Origin: an uncultured Pirellula sp.
Lineage (GTDB): Bacteria; Planctomycetota; Planctomycetia; Pirellulales; Pirellulaceae
DNA: 64,000 nt
Assembly (NCBI GenBank): GCA_903892355.1
Contig: CAITIE010000051.1
Location: 1-64,000 of the forward strand
Direction of reading: 5' to 3'
Below the pieces are notes generated by a model. The model did no database searches and had not been told where the DNA came from. It saw only the letters and a program-made list of their open reading frames with translations. The position numbers and the translations under genes were made by a program. The first letter of the stretch is position 1. Each line of letters starts with the position of its first letter. This document shows positions 1 through 21,647 of the stretch, one piece after another.

Positions 1-3000
1 AGATTCACTTCGCCTGGCGTGGAAACGGTTGTCACGCCAGCGATACGCCATGACGCATGCGCAGTGTCCGCTAAGGTGATGGCGACACCAGCTTGCAGCG
101 AAGCGTTCCCACTTACGACTACCCTAGCAGCATCCGTGTCGATGATCGAGTTCGTAGCCGCAATTCGGCCGTTGCCGCCGATGGCTATGTTTCCATCGAC
201 ACCAATCGAACCACCTGCGGTGATCGAGTAATTATTTGCGATCGAATGATCACCCAGTGTGACATCGTTGATATCCGAAACAACTGCGTTGCTTGCCGCG
301 ATCAACAAGCGACTCGAATCCCAACTGCCGCCCTGGCCTAGACTCACATCACCTGGAGTAGAAACGGTGGTCACGCCAGCGATACGCCATGAAGCATTGG
401 CTGTGTCGGCTAAAGTAATCGGCCCACCGGCCTTTAGTAAAGCGTCGCCGCTAACGACCACTCTCGCAGCGTCGGTGTCAGTGATTGATCCACTGACAAT
501 CATCTTGCCGTTTCCACCGATGTTCATCGTACCGTCAACGTTGATCGAACCGCCTGCCTTCAATTCATAATCGTTTCCAACTGCATGATCACCCAATATG
601 ACACCGTTGATATCGGAAACTGCTGCGTTGTTCGCAACGATCAACAAGCGATTCGAATCCCAACTGCCGCCTTGACCTAAATTCACGTCGCCTGGCGTTG
701 AGACGGTCGTGATGCCAGAGATACGCCATGAAGCATTGGCCGTATTGGCTAAGATGATGACGCCGCCAGCTTGCAGCGACGCATCTCCACTTACGACTAC
801 CTTCGCAGTATCCGTGTCAGTGATCGAGTTCGCAGCCGCAATTCGGATATTACCGCCGATGGTCATCGTGCCATCGACACTAATCGAACCACCTGATGTC
901 ATCGAGAAGTTATTCGCGATCGAATGATCACCCAGCGTGACACTGTTGATGTCCGAAACTGTTGCGTTGTTCGCAGCGATCAGCAAGCGATTGGAATCCC
1001 AATTCCCGCCCTGACCTAGATTCACATCACCTGGCGAGGAAACGGTGGTTACGCCAGAGATACGCCATGAAGCATTCGCTGTGTCGGCCAACGCTATCTT
1101 GCCGCCAGCTTGCAACACGGCGTTCCCACCTACAACTACCTTTGTAGCATCCGAATCCGTGATGGAATTCGCCACCACCATTTGGCTGTTTCCGCCGATG
1201 GCAATGTTTTCATCGATGCTAATCGAACCACCCGAGGTCATCGAATAGTTACCGGCAATCGAATGATCACCCAGCGTGACATCGTTGATCTCTGAAACCA
1301 CTGCGTTGTTCGCAGCGATCAACAACCGGTTCGAATCCCAACTGCCACCCTGGCCTAGACTCACGTCACCTGGCGTGGAAACGGTGGTCACGCCAGCGAT
1401 CCGCCATAAAGCATTCGCCGTGTCGGCTAAAGTAATCGGCCCACCTGACTTCAGTAGAGTGTCGCCGCTAACGACCACCCTAGCTGCATCGGTGTCGGTG
1501 ATCGATCCATTAGCAACAAATTGATTATCTCCGAGCACATTCATGACGCCATCGATAACGACCGATCTACCCGAAGATAACACATAAGGCCCAGTGATGA
1601 CGTGGTCGCCAAGTATCGTATCATTGACTTCGTTTACCGTCGCGGCATTTGCGAAAACCGACAATCGATTCGAATCCCACACACCAACTTGCCCGATGGA
1701 TATGCTTCCAAGCGTCTCCATGCGAGCCTCACCATCGATCGACCAGTTCTGGTTCAGCATGCTCGCCAAGCGAATCTCAATACCGGCTCTCAAGTCGAGT
1801 GTCCCCACATGAACATCAAAGGGATTTGCGCCCTCAGTGATGGTTTCATTGGCGCCCGCCTCAATGCGCATTGATTGCCATACGTCGATATCCCCTTCGA
1901 CGACCACAGACCCCGCTGCTGTAAGTGCAAATGTCCCTTGGATTGCAATATCCTGTAAACGAACATCATCCGCTTCTACAATCGTTGCATCCAATGCGGC
2001 AATTTCCAGGAGCGACGAATCCCACTGCCCAACGCCGCCTACGTCAATCCAACTTCCTGCATTCAAACGACTGGTCCCCAGTACTTGCCAAGCAGAACCG
2101 CTCGACCGCGCCAACTCAAGAAAGTCTTTGGCTGACCACGATGCATCACCACCAATAAAACCAAGTGCACCTGCATCTTCACGAATGGATCCACCCGAAA
2201 CAAGGGAATAATTGCCGAGAACATTATGGTCCATCAGTAAGACATCACCGCTTGCTCGCACCGATGCTGACGAGGCCGTCACGCCAAGCAATTCCGAGTC
2301 CCATTGACCGGAGTCCCCTAATCTCAAACCGTCCCCTGCGGCAAGAACTGCAGGGCCGTATACGTGCCATCGGCTTCCAGCATGCGTTGCAAGTTGCAGA
2401 TCATCTCCTGCATTGGCATTCATCGATCCATGAATCTCAACATCAGCCTCTGAACTTTCATAGACGCTCCCGGACGGATCAGTCTGCAAGTTCAAATCGC
2501 CCGATATCTGTATGTGCCCACCAAAACCGATCCCATTCGCTGCTTGAAATGACACATCTCCCGCCGCACTCCAGTACGCTTCCAATGCAATCGAATTTAC
2601 ATTGGCTACATCAACCGCAAGGTTCCCACTCAGTAACGGCAGCAGGGTCGCTCCCCGAAAGTCCCCCCCCCAGTAAAAATCTCCTTGGTTTCCCCACCCC
2701 CTTACCCGGACACTTTGCAAGTCAGACAGTGCGCCTGATGTTTCGCCTACGTCTTCAATAAAGTCGTCATTGGAATCGACATAAAATCTGACACCATCAC
2801 CCAGCAAATTTGCGGTTTGCACACCCGATGCCGTAATACCGATATCCAGCACTCCAGCATTGAACAACGCATCTACTGCCAAGACGCGACGCTTTTCCAA
2901 ACGCCGAAGTTCAAATTTTGGGTACCGAGGTCGAAGTTGAGAACGTCCTCCCGTCGACGAGAACTCCACTCGCTCCGACAGAAGAAGCCAACGCCTTACC

Positions 3001-3101
3001 GAATGAAACGAGAAATCTGTACTCTGGAGCCAATGACGTAACATTCCACAAAGCACGCGCCATGCGGTTGGGTCTTTCGAGATAGGCTTTTTTGGCCTCA
3101 T
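1..3101 (-). CDS. Giant repetitive surface/secreted protein, N-terminal part (C-terminus beyond the window)
   Basis: The minus-strand frame is open without a stop from an ATG at 3101 to the left edge, about 1033 codons. I checked every codon from 2700 to 1 for stops. Around residue 60-70 it carries PKFELRRLEKRRVLAVD, which resembles the LEPR-XLL motif near the N-terminus of very large planctomycete extracellular proteins. From about residue 140 it becomes Gly/Ala/Asp/Asn-rich and beta-strand-like. From about residue 470 it consists of near-identical 113-residue repeats with signatures such as GSWDSNRLLIAANNA, VTLGDHSIA and ADTANASWRI. Such repeats are usual in beta-helical adhesins and cell-wall or matrix proteins. 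I infer an exported structural or adhesive role; no catalytic domain is visible. A downstream ATG at 3044 is an alternative start. The in-frame stop TAG lies upstream near 3190. Confidence 0.87.
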   Translation of the reverse strand, partial: MRPKKPISKDPTAWRVLCGMLRHWLQSTDFSFHSVRRWLLLSERVEFSSTGGRSQLRPRYPKFELRRLEKRRVLAVDALFNAGVLDIGITASGVQTANLLGDGVRFYVDSNDDFIEDVGETSGALSDLQSVRVRGWGNQGDFYWGGDFRGATLLPLLSGNLAVDVANVNSIALEAYWSAAGDVSFQAANGIGFGGHIQISGDLNLQTDPSGSVYESSEADVEIHGSMNANAGDDLQLATHAGSRWHVYGPAVLAAGDGLRLGDSGQWDSELLGVTASSASVRASGDVLLMDHNVLGNYSLVSGGSIREDAGALGFIGGDASWSAKDFLELARSSGSAWQVLGTSRLNAGSWIDVGGVGQWDSSLLEIAALDATIVEADDVRLQDIAIQGTFALTAAGSVVVEGDIDVWQSMRIEAGANETITEGANPFDVHVGTLDLRAGIEIRLASMLNQNWSIDGEARMETLGSISIGQVGVWDSNRLSVFANAATVNEVNDTILGDHVITGPYVLSSGRSVVIDGVMNVLGDNQFVANGSITDTDAARVVVSGDTLLKSGGPITLADTANALWRIAGVTTVSTPGDVSLGQGGSWDSNRLLIAANNAVVSEINDVTLGDHSIAGNYSMTSGGSISIDENIAIGGNSQMVVANSITDSDATKVVVGGNAVLQAGGKIALADTANASWRISGVTTVSSPGDVNLGQGGNWDSNRLLIAANNATVSDINSVTLGDHSIANNFSMTSGGSISVDGTMTIGGNIRIAAANSITDTDTAKVVVSGDASLQAGGVIILANTANASWRISGITTVSTPGDVNLGQGGSWDSNRLLIVANNAAVSDINGVILGDHAVGNDYELKAGGSINVDGTMNIGGNGKMIVSGSITDTDAARVVVSGDALLKAGGPITLADTANASWRIAGVTTVSTPGDVSLGQGGSWDSSRLLIAASNAVVSDINDVTLGDHSIANNYSITAGGSIGVDGNIAIGGNGRIAATNSIIDTDAARVVVSGNASLQAGVAITLADTAHASWRIAGVTTVSTPGEVN
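5..1699. repeat. Five tandem 339-bp repeats inside the giant protein gene
   Basis: The anchor TCAC(G/A)TC(G/A)CCTGG recurs at 5, 344, 683, 1022 and 1361. The anchor GAATCCCA recurs at 316, 655, 994, 1333 and 1672, exactly 339 bp apart each time, so each unit encodes 113 residues in register. Two more divergent units follow upstream in the coding direction, with anchors near 2017 and 2296, where the spacing is no longer constant. The array probably continues beyond the left edge. Confidence 0.95.
2663..2671. repeat. 9-nt poly-C tract inside the surface protein gene
   Basis: Nine consecutive C (G on the coding strand) sit about codon 145 of the giant protein, inside Tyr-Trp-Gly-Gly-Asp. The frame is intact with nine residues: both the upstream N-terminal motif and the downstream repeats are in the same frame. 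A gain or loss of one base would truncate the protein. Confidence 0.9.
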
Positions 3102-3343
3102 GCAATGGATTTCCAGGTCGGCTCGATTTCCGCGTCGATTGCCCCAATCTCTATCCGATTTCACGTGTTTTGAGGCACTGGGCCTATTCTAATTAGGCCA
3201 CCTTACAGCCGCGCGGTATTCAGGTGTCCGTTTCTAAAACGAAGTCGGATTAGACCGATAATAACGGTTTAGAGGCATTGTACGGAGTAGAGTTCCCCGT
3301 CGACGAGGTTTCATGCCGAGCCAAAAGGCTCATCCGCCACAGT

Positions 3344-4732
3344 CTAGAGACCCTGTTTCCGAGCAAAATGCAGGAAATGCATCCAATCCGAAGGTGTTAA
3401 ATCATGCTCCCCTTCCCGAAGGTGGTAACCGATGATCTCACCGATGGATTGGTTGACTACAGGAAGCTGGCTGGGCAGACCTCCGTTCAAACCAAAAAGG
3501 GCATAGGCTGGGTTTGCGTGGTATCCAGACAAAAGCTCTCCCAGCGGATCAGCCCATAGATCCTTGCTAGCGCTCGCGATATACACCGGTCGCGGTGCAA
3601 TAGCGGCTACCAATTGATGCTGATCGAAAGGCATCTTCTCTTCTTGGTCGTTGAATCGTCGAAAATTTCGGTTGAACCAATGCGGAAACGAAGTATTAAT
3701 CCGAGCCACGGACTCACCGAAACACCGCTTGCTCAATGCAGCGCCACCACAACCTGAATTGTTGGAAATAACGATCTTAAACCGTTCGTCGTTCGCACCA
3801 GCCCATAACGCTGTTTTCCCAAGTCGAGAATGCCCGAGCACCATCATCCCCTCTGGACGGATCCCCTCCGTCTTTGTTAGTACGTCGGCGATCCGTGATA
3901 ATCCCCAAGCCCAGGCAGAAATCGATCCCCATCGGTCTGGCGTCTTATCAGTGCATCGATATTCAGGAAACAGGGCATGCACTCCATTCTCAAATCCATC
4001 ATCGAAATCGGGGTCAATATCGCCGTAATGAGCTGTTGCGACCCCATAACCAGCGCCGACGATCTCTCGTATAGGCCATCTCTCTTCTTGGCTTGCCCGG
4101 CTTGCTTCCGTCGCACGATTGTCCACCACTCCAGGATTACGAGCATCGCACCAGCTCGATGTTAACCGCACCTTTGGATCATCGGTGGTGGATTGGTTTC
4201 CTCGAAAGTTCAGGCCCACAAAACAACTCACCGGCTGGGCCGACTCTTTCGGCGTCCAAAGCAACAAATCGATCCTGACAAACTTTCCATTCCGACTCAA
4301 CATGATCGCAAATTGCCGTCGTCGGATCCCCGGTTCCTCCTTTCCCTGATGGATAGCTGGACCATCGTCAAACTTCTCGACTTCGATACCGACACTCTCC
4401 TTCGGCATCGAACCATATTCATTATCCGCAAGCAACGTTAGGAGGTAGTTGCGATGTTCCGGCCATTGATCGGCAGACGCGATTACTTTGCCATCCTTAC
4501 CTACCAGTACGCTGGGCAACTCGCACCGCGGTACCATTGTCTCATCGTAGTTCGGTGGCCGGATGGTCGTTTGAGCAAAAGAAACCGCGTGGACTATTGC
4601 GATCGCGATGAATGCCTCCGTGACTAATATCCACGTGGCGAATATCGACGTGGCAAAAAGCCCCGAGGAAAACGCGGTAGACGCACGACAAGCCTGACGT
4701 GTCAGCACCAGATTTCTTAGGCCTATAAACAT
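3344..4732 (-). CDS. CE15-type glucuronoyl esterase, secreted
   Basis: A 462-residue protein with a hydrophobic N-terminal segment ending near SFAQ (about residue 53), consistent with a long signal peptide. The alpha/beta-hydrolase nucleophile elbow GHSRLGK lies at residues 300-306 (Ser302), followed by SNNSGCGGAALSKR, the bacterial form of the CE15 signature. MPFDQHQLVAAIAPRPVYI and ASKDLWADP follow at about 367-396, and the likely catalytic His is His443 in GEHDLTPSDW. CE15 enzymes cleave the ester between 4-O-methyl-glucuronic acid on xylan and lignin alcohols, so the cell probably attacks plant-type polysaccharide. GAGGT lies about 7 nt before the ATG. It may be cotranscribed with the small gene upstream (gap 80 bp). 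A related acetyl xylan esterase activity is the alternative. Confidence 0.88.
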   Translation of the reverse strand: MFIGLRNLVLTRQACRASTAFSSGLFATSIFATWILVTEAFIAIAIVHAVSFAQTTIRPPNYDETMVPRCELPSVLVGKDGKVIASADQWPEHRNYLLTLLADNEYGSMPKESVGIEVEKFDDGPAIHQGKEEPGIRRRQFAIMLSRNGKFVRIDLLLWTPKESAQPVSCFVGLNFRGNQSTTDDPKVRLTSSWCDARNPGVVDNRATEASRASQEERWPIREIVGAGYGVATAHYGDIDPDFDDGFENGVHALFPEYRCTDKTPDRWGSISAWAWGLSRIADVLTKTEGIRPEGMMVLGHSRLGKTALWAGANDERFKIVISNNSGCGGAALSKRCFGESVARINTSFPHWFNRNFRRFNDQEEKMPFDQHQLVAAIAPRPVYIASASKDLWADPLGELLSGYHANPAYALFGLNGGLPSQLPVVNQSIGEIIGYHLREGEHDLTPSDWMHFLHFARKQGL

Positions 4733-4812
4733 GTGTATTTACCTCTTCAAAATTCGATAAAACAGAAAACCAAGTTGACTTTGCGATGGCAAGGAGACAA
4801 CACTCCCGCGAC

Positions 4813-5037
4813 CTATGCCCCTCGATTTTTTTTGCCTTGCAATGGTACCAACTCGATCACGCGAGATCCCGTAATCGTCGGTTTCGCTTCGCACCCTGCA
4901 CATCCTCCGCCATCGCCCGATCGCCCATCAGAAAACGATCGAGCGAATCGCGTCAACCTTCGAAGCGCAACCAACAAACATGCAACAATGATGACGGCAA
5001 CAACGATCCATTGCATAGGAATACCAGCGTTTGACAT
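4813..5037 (-). CDS. Small FeoB-associated-type Cys-containing membrane protein
   Basis: A 74-residue protein with one N-terminal membrane span (WIVVAVIIVACLLVALRR, about residues 9-26), a basic/serine linker and a short glycine-cysteine patch, GGGCAGCE. This architecture (one helix, then a CxxC-like patch) matches the small FeoB-associated Cys-rich membrane proteins found near ferrous iron transporters. No feoA or feoB is visible here, so the iron link is inference from architecture only. The reading frame ends in a run of A residues. The Shine-Dalgarno is weak, and an internal Met8 is an alternative start. Confidence 0.6.
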   Translation of the reverse strand: MSNAGIPMQWIVVAVIIVACLLVALRRLTRFARSFSDGRSGDGGGCAGCEAKPTITGSRVIELVPLQGKKNRGA

Positions 5038-5463
5038 TCAGACCGAAATCAAACCGAATGGATCGATCCATCGTTTGACAACGCTTGATTGTAGCTAGTA
5101 CAACCCGATTTCAACTCCCAGGGAACCAGAGAAACAGATATGAGTTCTCAAAAACAACAACTCATCCCCGCTTTCCTCACTCCAACACAGGCATGGATTT
5201 CCGCAGCAGGTAACCTCGACAAGGCACGGCCTCGTACACCTTCTCCGGGGATTTGCGTACACTATGTCTCCAACGGATGCGGCTAACCATAGAGATGGCT
5301 AACCGCCAGGGCTGTGTGTTTCAACGGCATTCTCCGCTGCTAGGCTCCCGGAGCACCGTCACCTTTCGGCTCCTAACCGACCAAGGAATGGATCGGAAAC
5401 GCTCAGCGAAGGATTGCTTCAGGCACGCATAGGAAACTGTTTTCGCAACAAGGAACTACGAGA
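5038..5463. other. Divergent intergenic region, no clear gene
   Basis: 426 bp between the divergent 4813-5037 and 5464-6303 genes, and so likely to hold promoters for both. The only candidate is a 48-codon plus-strand frame at 5140-5286 with no recognisable features. AAGGAAC, 8-10 nt before the ATG at 5464, is a plausible ribosome binding site for the downstream gene. I see no RNA gene or convincing hairpin. Confidence 0.5.
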
Positions 5464-6303
5464 ATGTGTCGATTTACTCGAGGGATTCGCATAGGGGCGG
5501 TTTTATACTTGGCTATTTTAGGCACGTTGATGGATTCCTCGAAAGCCTTTTCACAACAGGCCCTGAGATGGAAATTCACCTCCGGAGCGACATGGCGTGT
5601 GGCCACCGAGCAAGAGATCAGCACGAGCATCAACAACCGTACCAAGACTGTGTCCCAGTCTCTTTCCATGGATTGGAATATCGTTTCCGTAGAAGTCGAT
5701 GGAACGGCAATCATCGATCAGTTGGTCAAAGACCTCCAGGTCCAAATCGATGGAGTTGTTGTATTCGACAGCAAGAAGCCATCAAGGTCCGATGCCGAGG
5801 AAAAAATCGCCGGTCGATTCCAGTCCATCATCGGCCAGAAGATCACTGCGAAGCACACACCGCGCGGAGAGATTTCCTACCTGGATGCTCCTGAAAGCAC
5901 CCCGGATCTCCTTCGTGCTCAAGCACCCGAATCGCTCTTGCTCTTTCCTGACAAACCGATCAGCGTTGGTAGCAGTTGGATCACCGAAGCGACGAGAACG
6001 ATCGATTTGATTGGAAAGCTCCACACGACCAACACGTGGCAATATGTTGGACTAGAGCCCAATGAAAGCAAAAAACTCCACCGCTTTCGTGTCACTCCAA
6101 GTTTTCAAATCGACGACGAATCCCAGCGAGAGTTAACCCGTCAAGAAGGCGCTGGCAATGTTTGGTTTGACTCCGACAAAGGACGCATCGAAAAATCCGA
6201 AATCATCCAAGCGGTAGACTGGAAGAGGACTGAAGGGGATTTGCAAATCGTACAAAAGTACACAACGAAGACGACATCGCGGTTCCAAGACGCGGCACCA
6301 TGA
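5464..6303 (+). CDS. Secreted hypothetical protein (DUF6263-like)
   Basis: A 279-residue protein with a signal peptide (hydrophobic VLYLAILGTLM, cleavage likely after SKAFS, about residue 30). The mature part is beta-rich: LRWKFTSGATWRVATEQEI, then WNIVSVEVDGTAIIDQLV, a GEISYLDA segment, and a late SVGSSWITEATRTIDLIGKLHTTNTWQYVG block. The overall shape (a quantity computed per condition, 'IVEKYTTKT' at the end) resembles the DUF6263 family of bacterial secreted proteins, whose function is unknown. I recognise no catalytic motif. It stands alone between divergent and convergent neighbours. GGAAC upstream supports this start. Confidence 0.8.
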   Translation: MCRFTRGIRIGAVLYLAILGTLMDSSKAFSQQALRWKFTSGATWRVATEQEISTSINNRTKTVSQSLSMDWNIVSVEVDGTAIIDQLVKDLQVQIDGVVVFDSKKPSRSDAEEKIAGRFQSIIGQKITAKHTPRGEISYLDAPESTPDLLRAQAPESLLLFPDKPISVGSSWITEATRTIDLIGKLHTTNTWQYVGLEPNESKKLHRFRVTPSFQIDDESQRELTRQEGAGNVWFDSDKGRIEKSEIIQAVDWKRTEGDLQIVQKYTTKTTSRFQDAAP

Positions 6304-6381: not shown

Positions 6382-7788
6382 TTACCCCTGGGTCGGGAAT
6401 TCTCGCACTGCCAAAGTCACATGCTCTGCGAAGTCAATTCGCTGAAAATCATCCATTGCTAACCGCTCCGGATAGAATCGATCGATCCATTCCTTGATCT
6501 TTTGGCTAGTCCCCTCATTCCATCGGTACTTCGCTAGCGATGACATTGAAAGGTCGGACAGCCAACTTGCCGGCCAATCCATCCTAAGCCTCAAGCAAGC
6601 TGGCCCACCTCCATTGGCCATACTCTCATTGAGATGAACATAGCTCACACCAACGATAGGGTTTCGCGCATCAGCAATCCATGCACCAATCAATTCACGC
6701 ACTTCAGCTGATTGCTCGCACTGAGCTGGGCAAACCAAGTGCATCCCACCGTGAGGCAACGATAGGATTTGGCTATTAAATAGGTATGTGCGAACGGCTT
6801 GGTGGAGCGGGATTAATTCAGCATCAATTCGGAGGGGATAGAGTGGCTCTCCGAAAAGCGTTTCGTACTTGGTGCGAATTTCTCGAACCAGCTGGTCTCC
6901 ATTCAAAAAAGCATCCGCGTGATAGAGAAAAAGATTCCTGTTAGAGGTTGCGATAACATCATTGTGAAAGACACCTGCATCGACAGCCTCAGGGCTCTGT
7001 TCTGCGAATATTGTCTGCTCTATCGGCAATCGCAGGAACTTACTGATCGTGTGGGATGCCAGGCTGGACTGGCGTGCTCGAAAAGAAAGCATCCCCGTAC
7101 TGGCCGCGCCGGCCCCATGAACAAAAACATGCAACCCCAACGACGACTGCACCGGGTGCGGGGCGGCAAATCGCATATGATTCGCGGCTCCTTCATCTCG
7201 AAGCGGATCGACCGCGGGTATTGGCAGACAGACTTGAACCTTCTCAACACCACGAAACAGATCTGAAAACTGCAAGTAGCGTTCTACGGCCTCCATCCCT
7301 CGGTGAAGGCTGCTCGAGAGGTTCGCGAGCACCAGCCTCGAGACTCCGTCCACCGCATCTGTTCCCGGGCAAAACGTACCCGCATTAGCAGTCCACATGT
7401 AGGATGAACTGTAGGCTGCAGAAAGTAGCGCTGGCGATTCATCGGCGCATCGCTTCAGTGCATCGGCTTGCTTGGATCGATCGAACCGCTGCTTAGAATC
7501 GATCCAACCGCAACGGACGAGAAAATCCCAATGAGGCCTTGTGAGCGGCGGCAAAAAGAATTGAGGGACGCCGAGGGATGCCACGTGATCCATCTTTGCA
7601 ACGCCTTCGAGCGCTGCTGCTCTCGGATGCGATTGCTTCGCTTGATTGGCTAGACTGGCCACATTGCCGACTCCCAACCCACCAAAATGATGAGTTGGTC
7701 CGATGATTCCATCGATTTGAACTTCGGTCAATTTCGGTACTTCCTGCAAAGAACCGACAACGTGTAGCTGGCTGCTATCCAAGTTCAT
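6382..7788 (-). CDS. astB: N-succinylarginine dihydrolase
   Basis: A 468-residue protein. The N-terminus reads VQIDGIIGPTHHFGGLGVGN, then ASLANQAKQSHPRAAALEG and LGVPQFFLPPLTRP, the start typical of AstB. C-terminal signatures include LPHGGMHLVCPAQ and SMANGGGPACLRLR, which holds the expected nucleophilic Cys of this guanidine-modifying-enzyme fold. AstB converts N2-succinyl-L-arginine to succinylornithine, CO2 and ammonia, the second step of the arginine succinyltransferase pathway. No astA, astC, astD or astE is in the window. The start lies 3 bp after the stop of the upstream dehydrogenase gene, so the two form an operon. Length matches the family (about 445 in E. coli). Confidence 0.9.
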   Translation of the reverse strand: MNLDSSQLHVVGSLQEVPKLTEVQIDGIIGPTHHFGGLGVGNVASLANQAKQSHPRAAALEGVAKMDHVASLGVPQFFLPPLTRPHWDFLVRCGWIDSKQRFDRSKQADALKRCADESPALLSAAYSSSYMWTANAGTFCPGTDAVDGVSRLVLANLSSSLHRGMEAVERYLQFSDLFRGVEKVQVCLPIPAVDPLRDEGAANHMRFAAPHPVQSSLGLHVFVHGAGAASTGMLSFRARQSSLASHTISKFLRLPIEQTIFAEQSPEAVDAGVFHNDVIATSNRNLFLYHADAFLNGDQLVREIRTKYETLFGEPLYPLRIDAELIPLHQAVRTYLFNSQILSLPHGGMHLVCPAQCEQSAEVRELIGAWIADARNPIVGVSYVHLNESMANGGGPACLRLRMDWPASWLSDLSMSSLAKYRWNEGTSQKIKEWIDRFYPERLAMDDFQRIDFAEHVTLAVREFPTQG

Positions 7789-7791
7789 GGA

Positions 7792-8895
7792 TCATGCATC
7801 CGCCACATCAACGTAAACCTTGAGAGCGCTGTTATCTTCGACGAGCAACCGCATCATCTCTCGATATTGATCGAGTCCTTTGACAGGATTCGTAAGGATC
7901 TTTTGCAGGACTCCTGGGAACATAACTTCACCTAGGGCGAGATCGCGAATCCCCATTTCAAAATGCTCACGATTCGCGTTTACACTTCCCAAAAGTAGCT
8001 TGTTCCCTAGCACCCACTCGATGTTGATTTTGTCGGAAGGAACCGTCGTTGTGTTTTTGCCGCCTGTAATGCTGGTCCAAACCAAGGCGCCATTGTGACC
8101 CAGCGACTGCATTGCATTGAAGGCGATCTGCGAGGATCCTGTCGCGTCAACGATTAAATCAGCCTTGCCTACTTTGGCTGTGAGTTGCTCAAGCGACACC
8201 TCGGAGGTCGGCACATACGTTGCTTCCATTCCTTCGACGATGGAACTCTTTAGATGCGGGCCTTTGGCTCGGGCGAGTGTGAATACTTCGAGTCCCTTCA
8301 AACGCAATACCAGCGTCGACAGCAAGCCGATTTGTCCAGCTCCTAGAACGAATGCTCTCTTAGGGCTCCAGACCTTCATACGTCGCTGAGCTTCAAACGC
8401 TTGATAGATGGCCTTGGCCGCGCAGCTCATCGGTTCCATCAGCACATGCAGATGCTTCAGGCCTTTCGGGACGCGAACGATGTAATCTTCATGGTCCACA
8501 AAGTACTCGGTGAGGTAGCCATGTAGCAGGTTGATGCCTCGCTCGTAGTACGTTTCCTCACTGGTCATATCGTAGGTTCCGATCTTGTCATAAATCGAAC
8601 CACCTGGTCGACGCACTGTGGCAGTCACGTAATCTCCAACACGAATATTCCGGACATTCGGGCCAACTTGCTGAACAATCCCAAACGATTCGTGACCGAG
8701 GACCAAATAGTCATCACCCGGGGGAGGGTTACCGTAAAGCGCGTCGTTGATTTCCCGATCCGTCGCATCGACCCCCACCTTGAGCACCTTGACCAAGATT
8801 CCTTTTCCATCCGGAATCTTTTGGATATCAGGCATTGGGATGTCGCGCTGATGAACACTATTGGGTGTACCGGGACGTACTGCGATCGCTTTCAT
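7792..8895 (-). CDS. Zinc-type medium-chain dehydrogenase, glucose 1-dehydrogenase-like
   Basis: A 367-residue MDR enzyme. The N-terminal catalytic domain has [16 protein letters not shown], the zinc-binding [11 protein letters not shown] and [11 protein letters not shown], and the region [28 protein letters not shown] supplies the structural acidic residue. The cofactor domain has a Rossmann glycine motif in [10 protein letters not shown] (about residue 190), and the C-terminus ends YVDVADA. The pattern VGVDxTDxE...YERG...HGY...EP is that of haloarchaeal and Sulfolobus-type glucose dehydrogenases (NAD(P)+, D-glucose to gluconolactone). The true substrate could be another sugar. It is the first gene of a two-gene operon with astB. 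The Shine-Dalgarno is weak. Confidence 0.82.
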
Positions 8896-9256
8896 GAGAA
8901 CTCGAATACCGATATGAAGTTTTGACTGAGTATTTAGCTGGGAGCATCCTGGGGTAGGCCCACTGGCCGCACCGAATCACAAGCTCTCAAGTCCTGCCGA
9001 GAAGCGGGCCTCCCATGAGATTGGCCCGCTAACCAGCCGAACGACCGAGCCCGCTAACCAGCCGAACGACCGGAGCAGTATAGCCATCTTTCAAATTCCG
9101 TCCCATGCCAACTCGCATCCCCTTTCCCGGTTTGCGTTCGACTCCGATTCACTTCGCGATACAATTTGGCTCCCCGGCAAGGGCTCAAGAATCGATATCC
9201 TAATGTCTCTCCAGATCCTACCGTCCCTCCAGTGATTCCATCGAAGGCAATTCCCG
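8896..9256. other. Divergent intergenic region with hairpin and short duplication
   Basis: 361 bp between gdh (minus) and mnmA (plus). GCGGGCC at 9004-9010 is exactly complementary to GGCCCGC at 9023-9029 (7-bp stem, 12-nt loop, no T run). Directly after it lies a 23-bp head-to-tail duplication (9025-9072). GAAGGC 10 nt before the mnmA ATG is a fair ribosome binding site. No gene is visible. Confidence 0.55.
9025..9072. repeat. Tandem 23-bp direct duplication upstream of mnmA
   Basis: A 23-bp sequence beginning CCCGCTAACCAGCC occurs at 9025-9047 and again, identical, at 9050-9072 (period 25 bp). The first copy overlaps the right arm of the 9004-9029 hairpin. Confidence 0.9.
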
Positions 9257-19044: not shown

Positions 19045-21315
19045 TTATTGGCCCATCGGGCGAGAAAAATACTGTCTCGCTACTTCGTGATACGGCAATC
19101 CTTGCCAACTTGCTGCAAGTTCTCGTGCAATTAATCCATCGACCAGCGGCTTGCGCTCATAGACTGCGGACAAACATTCCTCGACCAATCTCGCAGAGGA
19201 ATCTTTTCGAACAACGAGAAGCGCTGCTGTCGCGATCATCATCGTCGGTTCTTGGATCATGCCTCGGTATGCTCCCACCTTGAGCTCCAGCAATCGAAAC
19301 ATAGGTTCGGTCAATGTCAGTGAGGCGGCATCGCGGATTGAGAGCAATCGGTACTTACCCTCCGAAAGTAGCTCCACCATGCCCGACTGCTCAGGTTTGA
19401 CCATCGCGACCAATACATTCAGAGGCTGCCGGAGTGATGATTGAGTCCAGTCGCCATCGACGATTTCAAAATCCACTTCGGACAAATTGAAATGCTTCAG
19501 CAATCGCAGAGCGGCTTGTCGAGTTCCAGACTCCTTATTCCCCAGCACAATCCTCTTTCCTGCCAAATCCTCGATCCGTTCGATCCCCAATTCGACGGGT
19601 ACGAGAATATGAATCGCTTCAAAAAACAAAGGCGCCACGACAGCGACTTGATCCGATCGTATGGTGGACTCTTGCATCAGAGCAACATCCGCGTGCGATT
19701 CAAGCAGTTGGCGAAGATTCTCGATCGATCCACCGGTGGATATCACCGACGGAGGGCGACCACTCCCGGTCTTCATGCGATCGGAGAGTTTGCCTGCAAT
19801 ATCATAGTACATGCCTCCGGGAGCTCCCGACGCGATCGTGATTCTGCCTGGCAGCCGCTTATCGTCAATCCAGCGAAGGATCGAAGTGCCGAACAAAATC
19901 GCACCGAGCATGAGCGCGGCCATTGCGATGAAAGCACGCTGGGCCCAACGCTGCGAGGCAGACGGGTCGACTTGTCGCCCACCGGTCAAAGCAGCGACGA
20001 TCGGAATGTTTGAAAACCAGAAACGAAACCGACGAGGCCACGATGGCGGTCGAGCTTGAATCGGATGTCCGTTGTAAAAACGATCCAGATCCTGGGCAAG
20101 ATCCGCAGCTGTCGCATACCGAAGGCTCGGCGACTTCTCGAGGCACTTGCTTACGATTGTTTCTAAATCCACGTGGGTATTTGGCTGCAACTGCCGGACA
20201 CTTGGAGCAGGCTTGTGCATCACTTGCATCATCGTCTGCAAAACCGATGCCGCCTGAAATGGAGGTTTTCCCGTCAACAGCGCAAAAAGAATCGCTCCCA
20301 TCGCATACACGTCGGTCGCGACCCCTTGGTCCTCGCTTTTCCCAGCAGCTTGTTCCGGAGACATGTAACTTGGCGTACCCAAAGTAGCGCCTGTTGCCGT
20401 CAAGCCTTCGTCGCCACCCATTTGTTTAGCGAGTCCAAAGTCGGTAAGGTACACCTCATCTTCTTCATCTAGCAACACATTGGCTGGCTTCAAATCACGG
20501 TGCACGACCTCGTGCTCATGCGCGTAGTCGATTGCTCTCGCTACATCGCGAACATAGCGGACAGCGCGTTTGGGATCGATTGGACCGTTCGACACGATCT
20601 TGGCAAGATCCGTACCGGGAATGTAGTCCATTGAGAAAAAGTGGTGACCATCGCTTTCACCGCAGTGGTACACGGTGACGATATTCGGATGATCGAGCTT
20701 TGCAACACTACGGGCTTCACTGTAAAACCTCGCAACCTCTTCATCCGATGCCAGCGCCCCAGATCGAATCATCTTGATCGCCACCCGCCGATTGAGCTGC
20801 ACTTGGTTGGCCAAATAGACGACCCCCATTCCGCCTCGCCCCAGAACTCGTTCCAGCAGGTATTCGCCAAACCGACACGGAAGGGACGCTTGCGTGCTAT
20901 CGAGCGACGGGACATCGGACAAGCTAAAATCGGTGTCACTGGAGAGTGGAGCATCGACGAACGAGAACACCGCGCGTTTTTTCTCAAAATCCTCACCTTG
21001 AATTTTCAAATCCAAGGTGATGGCATTTGGATCATAGTTCGAGTGCGACTCTTCGCTCTCAGGGGATGACTCAGCGACTGGACTAGCGGCTGATTTCGTT
21101 TCCGCTTCGACTGATCCACCGTGAAACGTAGGCCCAGCCATGGTTTCAATCCAATCGGCGGCCGCGAGCAACTCTTGCAATCGATCCGCATACTCCGGGT
21201 GCTCGCGAAGGAAGCTCTCACGATCCACCAATTCACCGCGATCATGCCGTTTCAAGAAATCCAACAGAACCTGATCCAGTTCCAAGTCACCTTGGTCTTC
21301 GTGATTTTCACGCAT
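19045..21315 (-). CDS. Receptor-like Ser/Thr protein kinase fused to a TAXI-type solute-binding domain
   Basis: About 756 residues from the ATG at 21315 (GAGGGA 11 nt upstream; a GTG at 21363 is possible but its AGGAGG is only 1 nt away). The N-terminal 40 residues (LDFLKRHDRGELVDRESFL) are common in planctomycete kinases. The kinase domain starts at about 150 with VLGRGGMGVVY, VAIKMIR, HRDLKPANVLL, TDFGLAK and GTPSYMSPEQAAG. A single span (AFIAMAALMLGAILFGTSI) near residue 480 precedes an extracytoplasmic domain: ITIASGAPGGMYYDIAGKL, SVISTGGSIENLRQL, ADVALMQ and AGKRIVLGNKESGTRQAALRLL, the pattern of TAXI (TRAP-associated) solute receptors. I infer a sensor that binds a small molecule outside and signals by phosphorylation inside. 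Stand-alone gene. Confidence 0.9.
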   Translation of the reverse strand: MRENHEDQGDLELDQVLLDFLKRHDRGELVDRESFLREHPEYADRLQELLAAADWIETMAGPTFHGGSVEAETKSAASPVAESSPESEESHSNYDPNAITLDLKIQGEDFEKKRAVFSFVDAPLSSDTDFSLSDVPSLDSTQASLPCRFGEYLLERVLGRGGMGVVYLANQVQLNRRVAIKMIRSGALASDEEVARFYSEARSVAKLDHPNIVTVYHCGESDGHHFFSMDYIPGTDLAKIVSNGPIDPKRAVRYVRDVARAIDYAHEHEVVHRDLKPANVLLDEEDEVYLTDFGLAKQMGGDEGLTATGATLGTPSYMSPEQAAGKSEDQGVATDVYAMGAILFALLTGKPPFQAASVLQTMMQVMHKPAPSVRQLQPNTHVDLETIVSKCLEKSPSLRYATAADLAQDLDRFYNGHPIQARPPSWPRRFRFWFSNIPIVAALTGGRQVDPSASQRWAQRAFIAMAALMLGAILFGTSILRWIDDKRLPGRITIASGAPGGMYYDIAGKLSDRMKTGSGRPPSVISTGGSIENLRQLLESHADVALMQESTIRSDQVAVVAPLFFEAIHILVPVELGIERIEDLAGKRIVLGNKESGTRQAALRLLKHFNLSEVDFEIVDGDWTQSSLRQPLNVLVAMVKPEQSGMVELLSEGKYRLLSIRDAASLTLTEPMFRLLELKVGAYRGMIQEPTMMIATAALLVVRKDSSARLVEECLSAVYERKPLVDGLIARELAASWQGLPYHEVARQYFSRPMGQ

Positions 21316-21647
21316 ACTCGCGAATCCCTCAACTGCCTCGTGCCGACACCACAGGTTCTCCACGCCTCCTAACGCTCGAATGTCTCGGCGTTCAATTTAC
21401 CTTGCACCGCTTCTGGCCAGACTAATACCCATCCTCAGACTGGACGGAATTGTTCATAGGCGAAATTCGGGCGACCGTCATTGTACGTCCAACACCATCG
21501 ACCACCTAGCCACCTGCTAGCCCAGGGAATTTCTCTCCGTGCCGTATTCCCCTGAAAAAACAGAGTCACCCCTCAAAAAAAACAGGTTGCCATTTGATTT
21601 GCCCGAACAAGACACTTCCATCACAGGTTACGAATCGCGTAACAGGG
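21316..21647. other. Intergenic region between kinase and UvrA-like genes
   Basis: 332 bp on the promoter side of the kinase gene and downstream of the UvrA-like gene. It contains a run of eight A at about 21576 and a 14-bp direct repeat (21626-21639 and 21646-21659, period 20 bp; GGTTACGAATCGCG). No convincing hairpin terminator or gene is visible. Confidence 0.5.

Follow-up and report, generated by a model that had tools for sequence, protein, structure and literature searches.

In the available text of a survey of fibrillar adhesins (PMC8286594), the family DUF5649 is placed among the stalk domains, as one of those without a known adhesive domain there. The WD40 parts of membrane-spanning planctomycete kinases are mostly predicted to be periplasmic, according to the available text of PMC11032199. 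Giant genes and WD40 kinases are both abundant in planctomycetes, with few partners known for either. In the open-access literature, within the available texts of PMC8286594, PMC6461901, PMC11032199, PMC2754498, PMC5177795 and PMC5352709, no description of a giant protein paired with a kinase was found. The locus described here contains a giant gene which alone would be ordinary for the phylum (PMC5177795, available text); the new point is its pairing with a kinase gene that lies outside the window.

The window, the whole stretch of 64,000 nucleotides that was analysed, corresponds to bases 1–64000 of contig C51 (CAITIE010000051.1) in the 6.18-Mb genome of an uncultured Pirellula sp. assembled in 158 contigs. 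Since it begins at base 1 of the contig, the left edge marks a break in the assembly. On the minus strand, an uninterrupted reading frame runs off this edge (mechanical ORF 3..3164), and the frame of more than 1030 codons named in the original prediction was found to extend over 1033 codons from the ATG to the edge (Table 1); no better frame was present on the plus strand, where the longest one listed in 1..3101 has 198 aa (2165..2761). In the sister species (G005:C157) a TGA is located directly 5′ of the equivalent ATG, so the ATG at 3101 is most likely the start. Scanning of positions 2900–3600 for promoters and terminators found none. The encoded protein consists of a long basic stretch, the LEKRRVLA motif, a segment lacking strong repeats, a pair of old repeats and the array of 113-aa units. 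The GCE_fung gene upstream of the giant gene is also its neighbour at this position in the sister species, with 91% identity. A further Ser/Thr kinase gene is found inside the window at 19045–21363 (minus strand), with the kinase match at 20209–21147.

Table 1. Coordinates of the giant gene, its parts and its upstream neighbour (window positions unless a contig is named).
Feature	Position	Strand	Remark
Gene of giant protein (modelled beta-helix), N-terminal 1033 codons	3..3101	−	open at contig edge
ATG start codon (most likely)	3099..3101	−	in-frame TGA right before equivalent ATG in sister G005:C157
LEKRRVLA N-terminal motif, downstream of basic stretch	2877..2900	−	below PF07595 cut-off
Two repeats of 93 and 115 aa, older and diverged	1680..2303	−	
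Five core 113-aa units	3..1679	−	
Core unit 1	1679-1341	−	
Core unit 2	1340-1002	−	
Core unit 3	1001-663	−	
Core unit 4	662-324	−	
Core unit 5, 107 aa	323-3	−	cut by edge
GCE_fung (glucuronyl esterase) gene, upstream of giant gene	3344-4732	−	Pfam, 100 bits
Continuation of giant gene (inferred), outside window	contig C73, 66661 down to 62516	−	

Followed leftwards beyond the window, the array goes on in the last 928 bases of contig C73, the sole other place in the genome found by DNA search, and a stop is reached only after 1381 codons there. This frame encodes, in order, a partial core unit, two complete ones, the beginning of a further, diverged unit and about 1050 aa of other sequence. The ends of C51 and C73 share no exact overlap and no bridging contig was found, the DNA search giving two places and the protein search C51 and C73 alone. 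We infer that both ends belong to one gene, because no third place in the genome has the array, and because the N- and C-terminal parts both match single proteins of relatives, e.g., those of G020:C51 (1466 aa) and G024:C60 (1645 aa). The missing piece would comprise 29 aa if the ends are in register, or 29 aa plus a multiple of 113 aa, and the protein, for which thousands of residues had been thought possible, would have a minimum length of 2443 aa, provided that both ends belong to the same gene.

The repeats were assigned to the Pfam family DUF5649 (PF18886), with 99.2 bits against a gathering cut-off of 25 and nine matching stretches in the N-terminal part; the C-terminal part also matches this family (38.4 bits). 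An AlphaFold model of the first three core units displayed continuous beta structure with high confidence (pLDDT 97.2, pTM 0.91), and the array of 113-aa units is confidently modelled as a right-handed beta-helix. Comparison of the three-unit model with the PDB by Foldseek gave no match at E ≤ 0.001, and a sequence search against solved structures gave nothing below E 0.06. In a second comparison by VIA-align, run on 34 chains ranked by Foldseek, the structurally nearest protein was EtpA, a secreted adhesin, with Z 17.2 across 316 residues; other matches were the antifreeze protein 3p4g (Z 16.8), a curli subunit (Z 16.4, rmsd 9.5), a phage tailspike (Z 14.1) and the HxuA secretion domain (Z 12.7). 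The C-terminal domain gave a model with pLDDT 74, whose best structural matches were Ig-like domains at Z 5.9, though it may well have another fold. A DUF4864 match to the repeats in the N-terminal part (1.3e-9) was taken as repeat-driven, being absent from two scanned DUF5649 relatives, and a weak eIF2_C match was taken likewise. The DUF5649 assignment, the beta-helix model, the affiliation of all 22 named relatives to Planctomycetota and the minimum length support the proposed identity of the product as a giant, probably extracytoplasmic repeat protein of a planctomycete.

The repeat length of 113 residues predicted from the sequence was recovered by autocorrelation (peaks at 113 and 226) and by Tandem Repeats Finder, which gave 4.4 copies of 339 nt. 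The units had been described as nearly identical, and a recent expansion had been suggested as one possibility. The pairwise comparison of the eight core units (55–80% aa identity, 62–84% nt identity, dS 0.35–2.5) contradicts the former and does not support the latter. Together with a dN/dS of 0.07–0.36, these dS values indicate an old array under purifying selection, and the frame contains no internal stop. A related question is whether the array could be an assembly artefact or a decaying gene, as the contig breaks inside it, several homologous contigs also end in the gene, and the kinase frame of genome G008 is split into two ORFs. Differences of 16–38% in nucleotides between units, the low dN/dS in a frame without stops, the same array start in the sister species and an intact relative of 4677 aa in the isolate Neorhodopirellula pilleata argue strongly against this explanation, which we consider hardly credible.

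Concerted evolution, also put forward in the original prediction, stood in part. The protein of the sister species G005:C157 is 86% identical over 553 aa, and 88% identical in the non-repeat part. The unit-by-unit comparison with this protein covers two units, the first of which matched its positional partner best (78% against at most 66% for the others), whereas the second was closer to three other units (79%) than to its positional partner (73%), so orthology was lost for the second unit only (n = 2). The core units look mosaic, as exemplified by units N496 and N835, with a DNA identity of 46–50% over most of the first half and 83–93% in the second half; the longest run of identical codons, however, exceeded all 1000 shuffles in only one of 28 unit pairs. 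Recent expansion looks real in the homologue G002:C102, which has a period of 93 aa and a DNA identity of 87–98% in three of four successive unit comparisons. In this locus (L068) the 93-aa array occupies 6960–9203, its last units being 87–98% identical in DNA, and the contig ends inside the array. Autocorrelation revealed a period of 221–224 aa on the same frame in homologues of G001, G014 and G025, and no clear array was found in the G020 homologue. Between related species, protein length shifts by whole units of the modelled beta-helix, and units turn over.

The suggested LEPR-XLL signature was retained only as a loose resemblance of LEKRRVLA to LEPR-type motifs, with the curated models below cut-off or without match. 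The NCBIfam model LEPR-XLL (NF012209) did not match the N-terminus at E ≤ 10, and Planc_extracel (PF07595) gave 11.4 bits against a cut-off of 25.5 with 10 of 20 positions; LEPR-XLL membership was rejected on the curated models. When the genome was searched with NF012209, two sub-threshold places were found, neither at the giant gene. LEPRRVLNASF is present in homologues, and the N-terminal motif variants of relatives are LEKRRVFA, LERRQMFA, LEARRVLT, LERRRVYA and LEPRRVLN. Three other long frames of the same genome have the sequence LExRRx[LF]A close to their beginning, and a scan of the genome with the motif pattern gave 7 places against 2 for a control pattern. Because homologues and the three other long frames have similar motifs, a shared planctomycete N-terminal signal is plausible.

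At the C-terminus, most relatives have a hydrophobic stretch followed by a basic tail (e.g., FSRLARRLR), which is absent from the protein studied here and from those of L072, L073 and L076. A regular expression composed after inspection of the tails (14-residue hydrophobic stretch plus [FY][SGC]xx[AD]RRxR) matched 15 of 27 proteins, e.g., L172, L175 and L084, and none of 456 control windows. This tail is possibly a cytoplasmic anchor or a sorting tail outside the NCBIfam models. A PEP-CTERM tail was rejected, the best model reaching 14.1 bits against 65 on the C-terminal 119 aa of five relatives; one relative has a VPEPS-like tail below the PEP-CTERM cut-off.

On contig C73, beyond the window, a kinase gene begins with its ATG in a 4-nt overlap with the stop of the giant gene. 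The 1744-aa product of this kinase gene matches Pkinase (138 bits) and WD40 (41 bits), both over the Pfam cut-off, and contains a hydrophobic span at 574–592 (hydropathy 1.82) with a basic flank toward the kinase side. According to the positive-inside rule, the basic flank of a membrane span faces the cytoplasm, which would place the WD40 part outside it. The predicted topology is then a Ser/Thr kinase domain inside, a single span and a WD40-type part outside. In L073 (G008, MAG K_Offshore_surface_mx_130) the kinase is encoded by two consecutive ORFs in the same frame, 1055–3664 (869 aa, kinase half) and 3665–6289 (874 aa, WD40 half), which may reflect a genuine split, decay of the gene or an error in sequencing.

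Species genomes scanned with the C-terminal domain of the giant protein alone yielded 22 loci, all from Planctomycetota and all in metagenome-assembled genomes except that of the isolate N. pilleata, and 20 of them have a kinase gene directly downstream on the same strand. With the addition of the locus studied here, G024:C60 and six family genomes found by profile (five with a downstream kinase, the other being L177), the arrangement was found in 27 of 30 loci with the C-terminal domain, i.e., in 27 of the 28 informative ones. Two loci were uninformative, as L087 ends at the contig edge and L177 is cut before any kinase domain could appear; L093, with no kinase downstream, is the sole informative exception. 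Kinases were recognised by BLASTP at 1e-5, L090 being added separately, and the count covers only homologues with the C-terminal domain and the downstream side at hand, so that G005, G002:C102, G016:C605 and weaker N-part matches were left out. Also not among the 30 loci is a 2689-aa protein of G059, from another family (L069, 7891–15960), which matches the repeats only. It has an LERRRVLSA start and 94-aa DUF5649-like repeats, and neither a C-terminal domain nor an adjacent kinase homologue on its strand.

The intergenic distance in the 27 pairs ranges from a 127-nt overlap to 235 nt (at most 30 nt in 18 pairs, a 4-nt overlap in seven), and the pairing is kept at identities as low as about 25%. 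For 21 pairs, a tree of the C-terminal domain and one of the first 900 kinase residues were calculated, which agreed with a Pearson coefficient of 0.883 and a Spearman coefficient of 0.821, and none of 5000 permutations, which ignore relatedness, was as high. Three genomes carry two pairs each. In two of them (L075/L083 and L077/L081), the two pairs of a genome fall into different clades in both trees, so it is the pair that is inherited and not the species alone; in the third (L072/L059), the placement differs somewhat between the two trees. The pair is thus co-inherited, as seen from the matching trees, a result which a shared operon would also give without contact and in which the correlation is partly due to species descent. 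Within the own genome the kinase query gave 44 matches. Nineteen regions around others of these contain 21 kinase ORFs, not one of which adjoins a giant-protein homologue or a motif-bearing ORF. The L154 kinase of this control set is overlapped by an upstream 1137-aa ORF that shows no homology to the query.

The module belongs to the accessory genome rather than to the core. Of the 27 genomes of the genus, counting the own one, 16 have homologues of the C-terminal part, as does one of 33 other genomes by repeats alone, and the profile search, with at most three candidates scored per genome, detected 14 of 396 genomes of the order in 4 of 144 genera. N. pilleata has one copy by profile search, and its 4677-aa homologue contains two Laminin_G_3 stretches. 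An accessory distribution could be expected of a structural surface protein (coat, holdfast or S-layer-like) sharing an operon with a functionally unrelated kinase, and giant surface proteins are common in planctomycetes according to the available text of PMC5177795. Such a chance association is difficult to reconcile with a pairing that all but one of the 28 informative loci preserve, down to the identity given above, and with the separation of the L075/L083 and L077/L081 pairs in both trees, and we consider it improbable.

The reading to which we assign an even chance is that of a two-gene surface module, composed of a giant adhesin-like stalk and its cognate sensor kinase. The first gene would encode a giant beta-helical stalk exported via a planctomycete-type N-terminal signal, which in most relatives, not here, could be anchored in the membrane by the hydrophobic segment and basic tail. 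The second would encode the transmembrane Ser/Thr kinase with the topology predicted above. The stalk would reach a surface, a particle or another cell nearby; the outer part of the kinase, presumably in physical contact with the stalk, would read its engagement, assembly or tension and convert this into phosphorylation inside. The fold and size, together with the lectin-like domains found in one relative, suggest a surface stalk, the kinase architecture suggests sensing of the outside, and the fixed gene order and the matching trees suggest a shared function. Against the module count the lack of a known adhesive domain (Pfam) in the own sequenced parts, part of the gene being unsequenced, the L093 locus without kinase, and the four proteins (own, L072, L073 and L076) without C-terminal tail.

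The same gene order and co-inheritance would result if control were exerted from inside to outside, the kinase sensing another cue or the envelope state and governing how the giant protein is expressed, exported or assembled, but not reading the stalk. No gene for export or regulation was seen in the pair itself, and the large outer part of the kinase would need a ligand, most simply the surface protein that is inherited with it. Control of this kind is considered rather unlikely, and a stalk with its sensor is favoured over a kinase that governs stalk production. A more specific version of the stalk-and-sensor reading, which we put forward tentatively as possible, is a dedicated adhesion-receptor pair in which the giant extracellular beta-solenoid would act on its own transmembrane kinase like an antenna or a force lever, its length being tuned species-wise by gain and loss of units (periods of 93, 113 and 221–224 aa on a common frame) and the C-terminal domain co-evolving with the kinase. 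A conserved pair would provide one giant gene and one WD40 kinase with a testable partner each, and since N. pilleata is cultured and has one copy, the question is open to study in an isolate.

Compared with known systems, the giant protein has a long repetitive stalk, as do the fibrillar adhesins, with DUF5649 over the cut-off (PMC8286594, available text). Its own parts are without recognised adhesive domain, whereas the N. pilleata homologue has Laminin_G_3, and DUF5649 is described in that text without a kinase partner, unlike the pair reported here. With the TpsA-type adhesins (EtpA, HxuA, filamentous haemagglutinin) it would have the modelled beta-helix in common, but it lacks the haemagglutinin secretion domain (Pfam, E ≤ 1), and the immediately adjacent genes are those of the kinase and the esterase-like GCE_fung protein, not of a TpsB pore. 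Giant size and an LExRRxLA motif downstream of a basic start are shared with the planctomycete LEPR-type and Planc_extracel giant genes, although the own N-terminus is below cut-off or without match in the curated models of these. The kinase has the same Pkinase, span and WD40 architecture as the membrane-spanning Ser/Thr kinases of Planctomycetota described in PMC11032199, the main text of which contains neither “operon”, “neighb” nor “adjacent” and, as far as available, no giant partner. The position of the giant gene directly in front of the kinase gene in nearly all relatives suggests a “touch and signal” gene pair, unstudied so far, which, if true, would correspond in bacteria to an adhesion receptor equipped with a kinase of its own.
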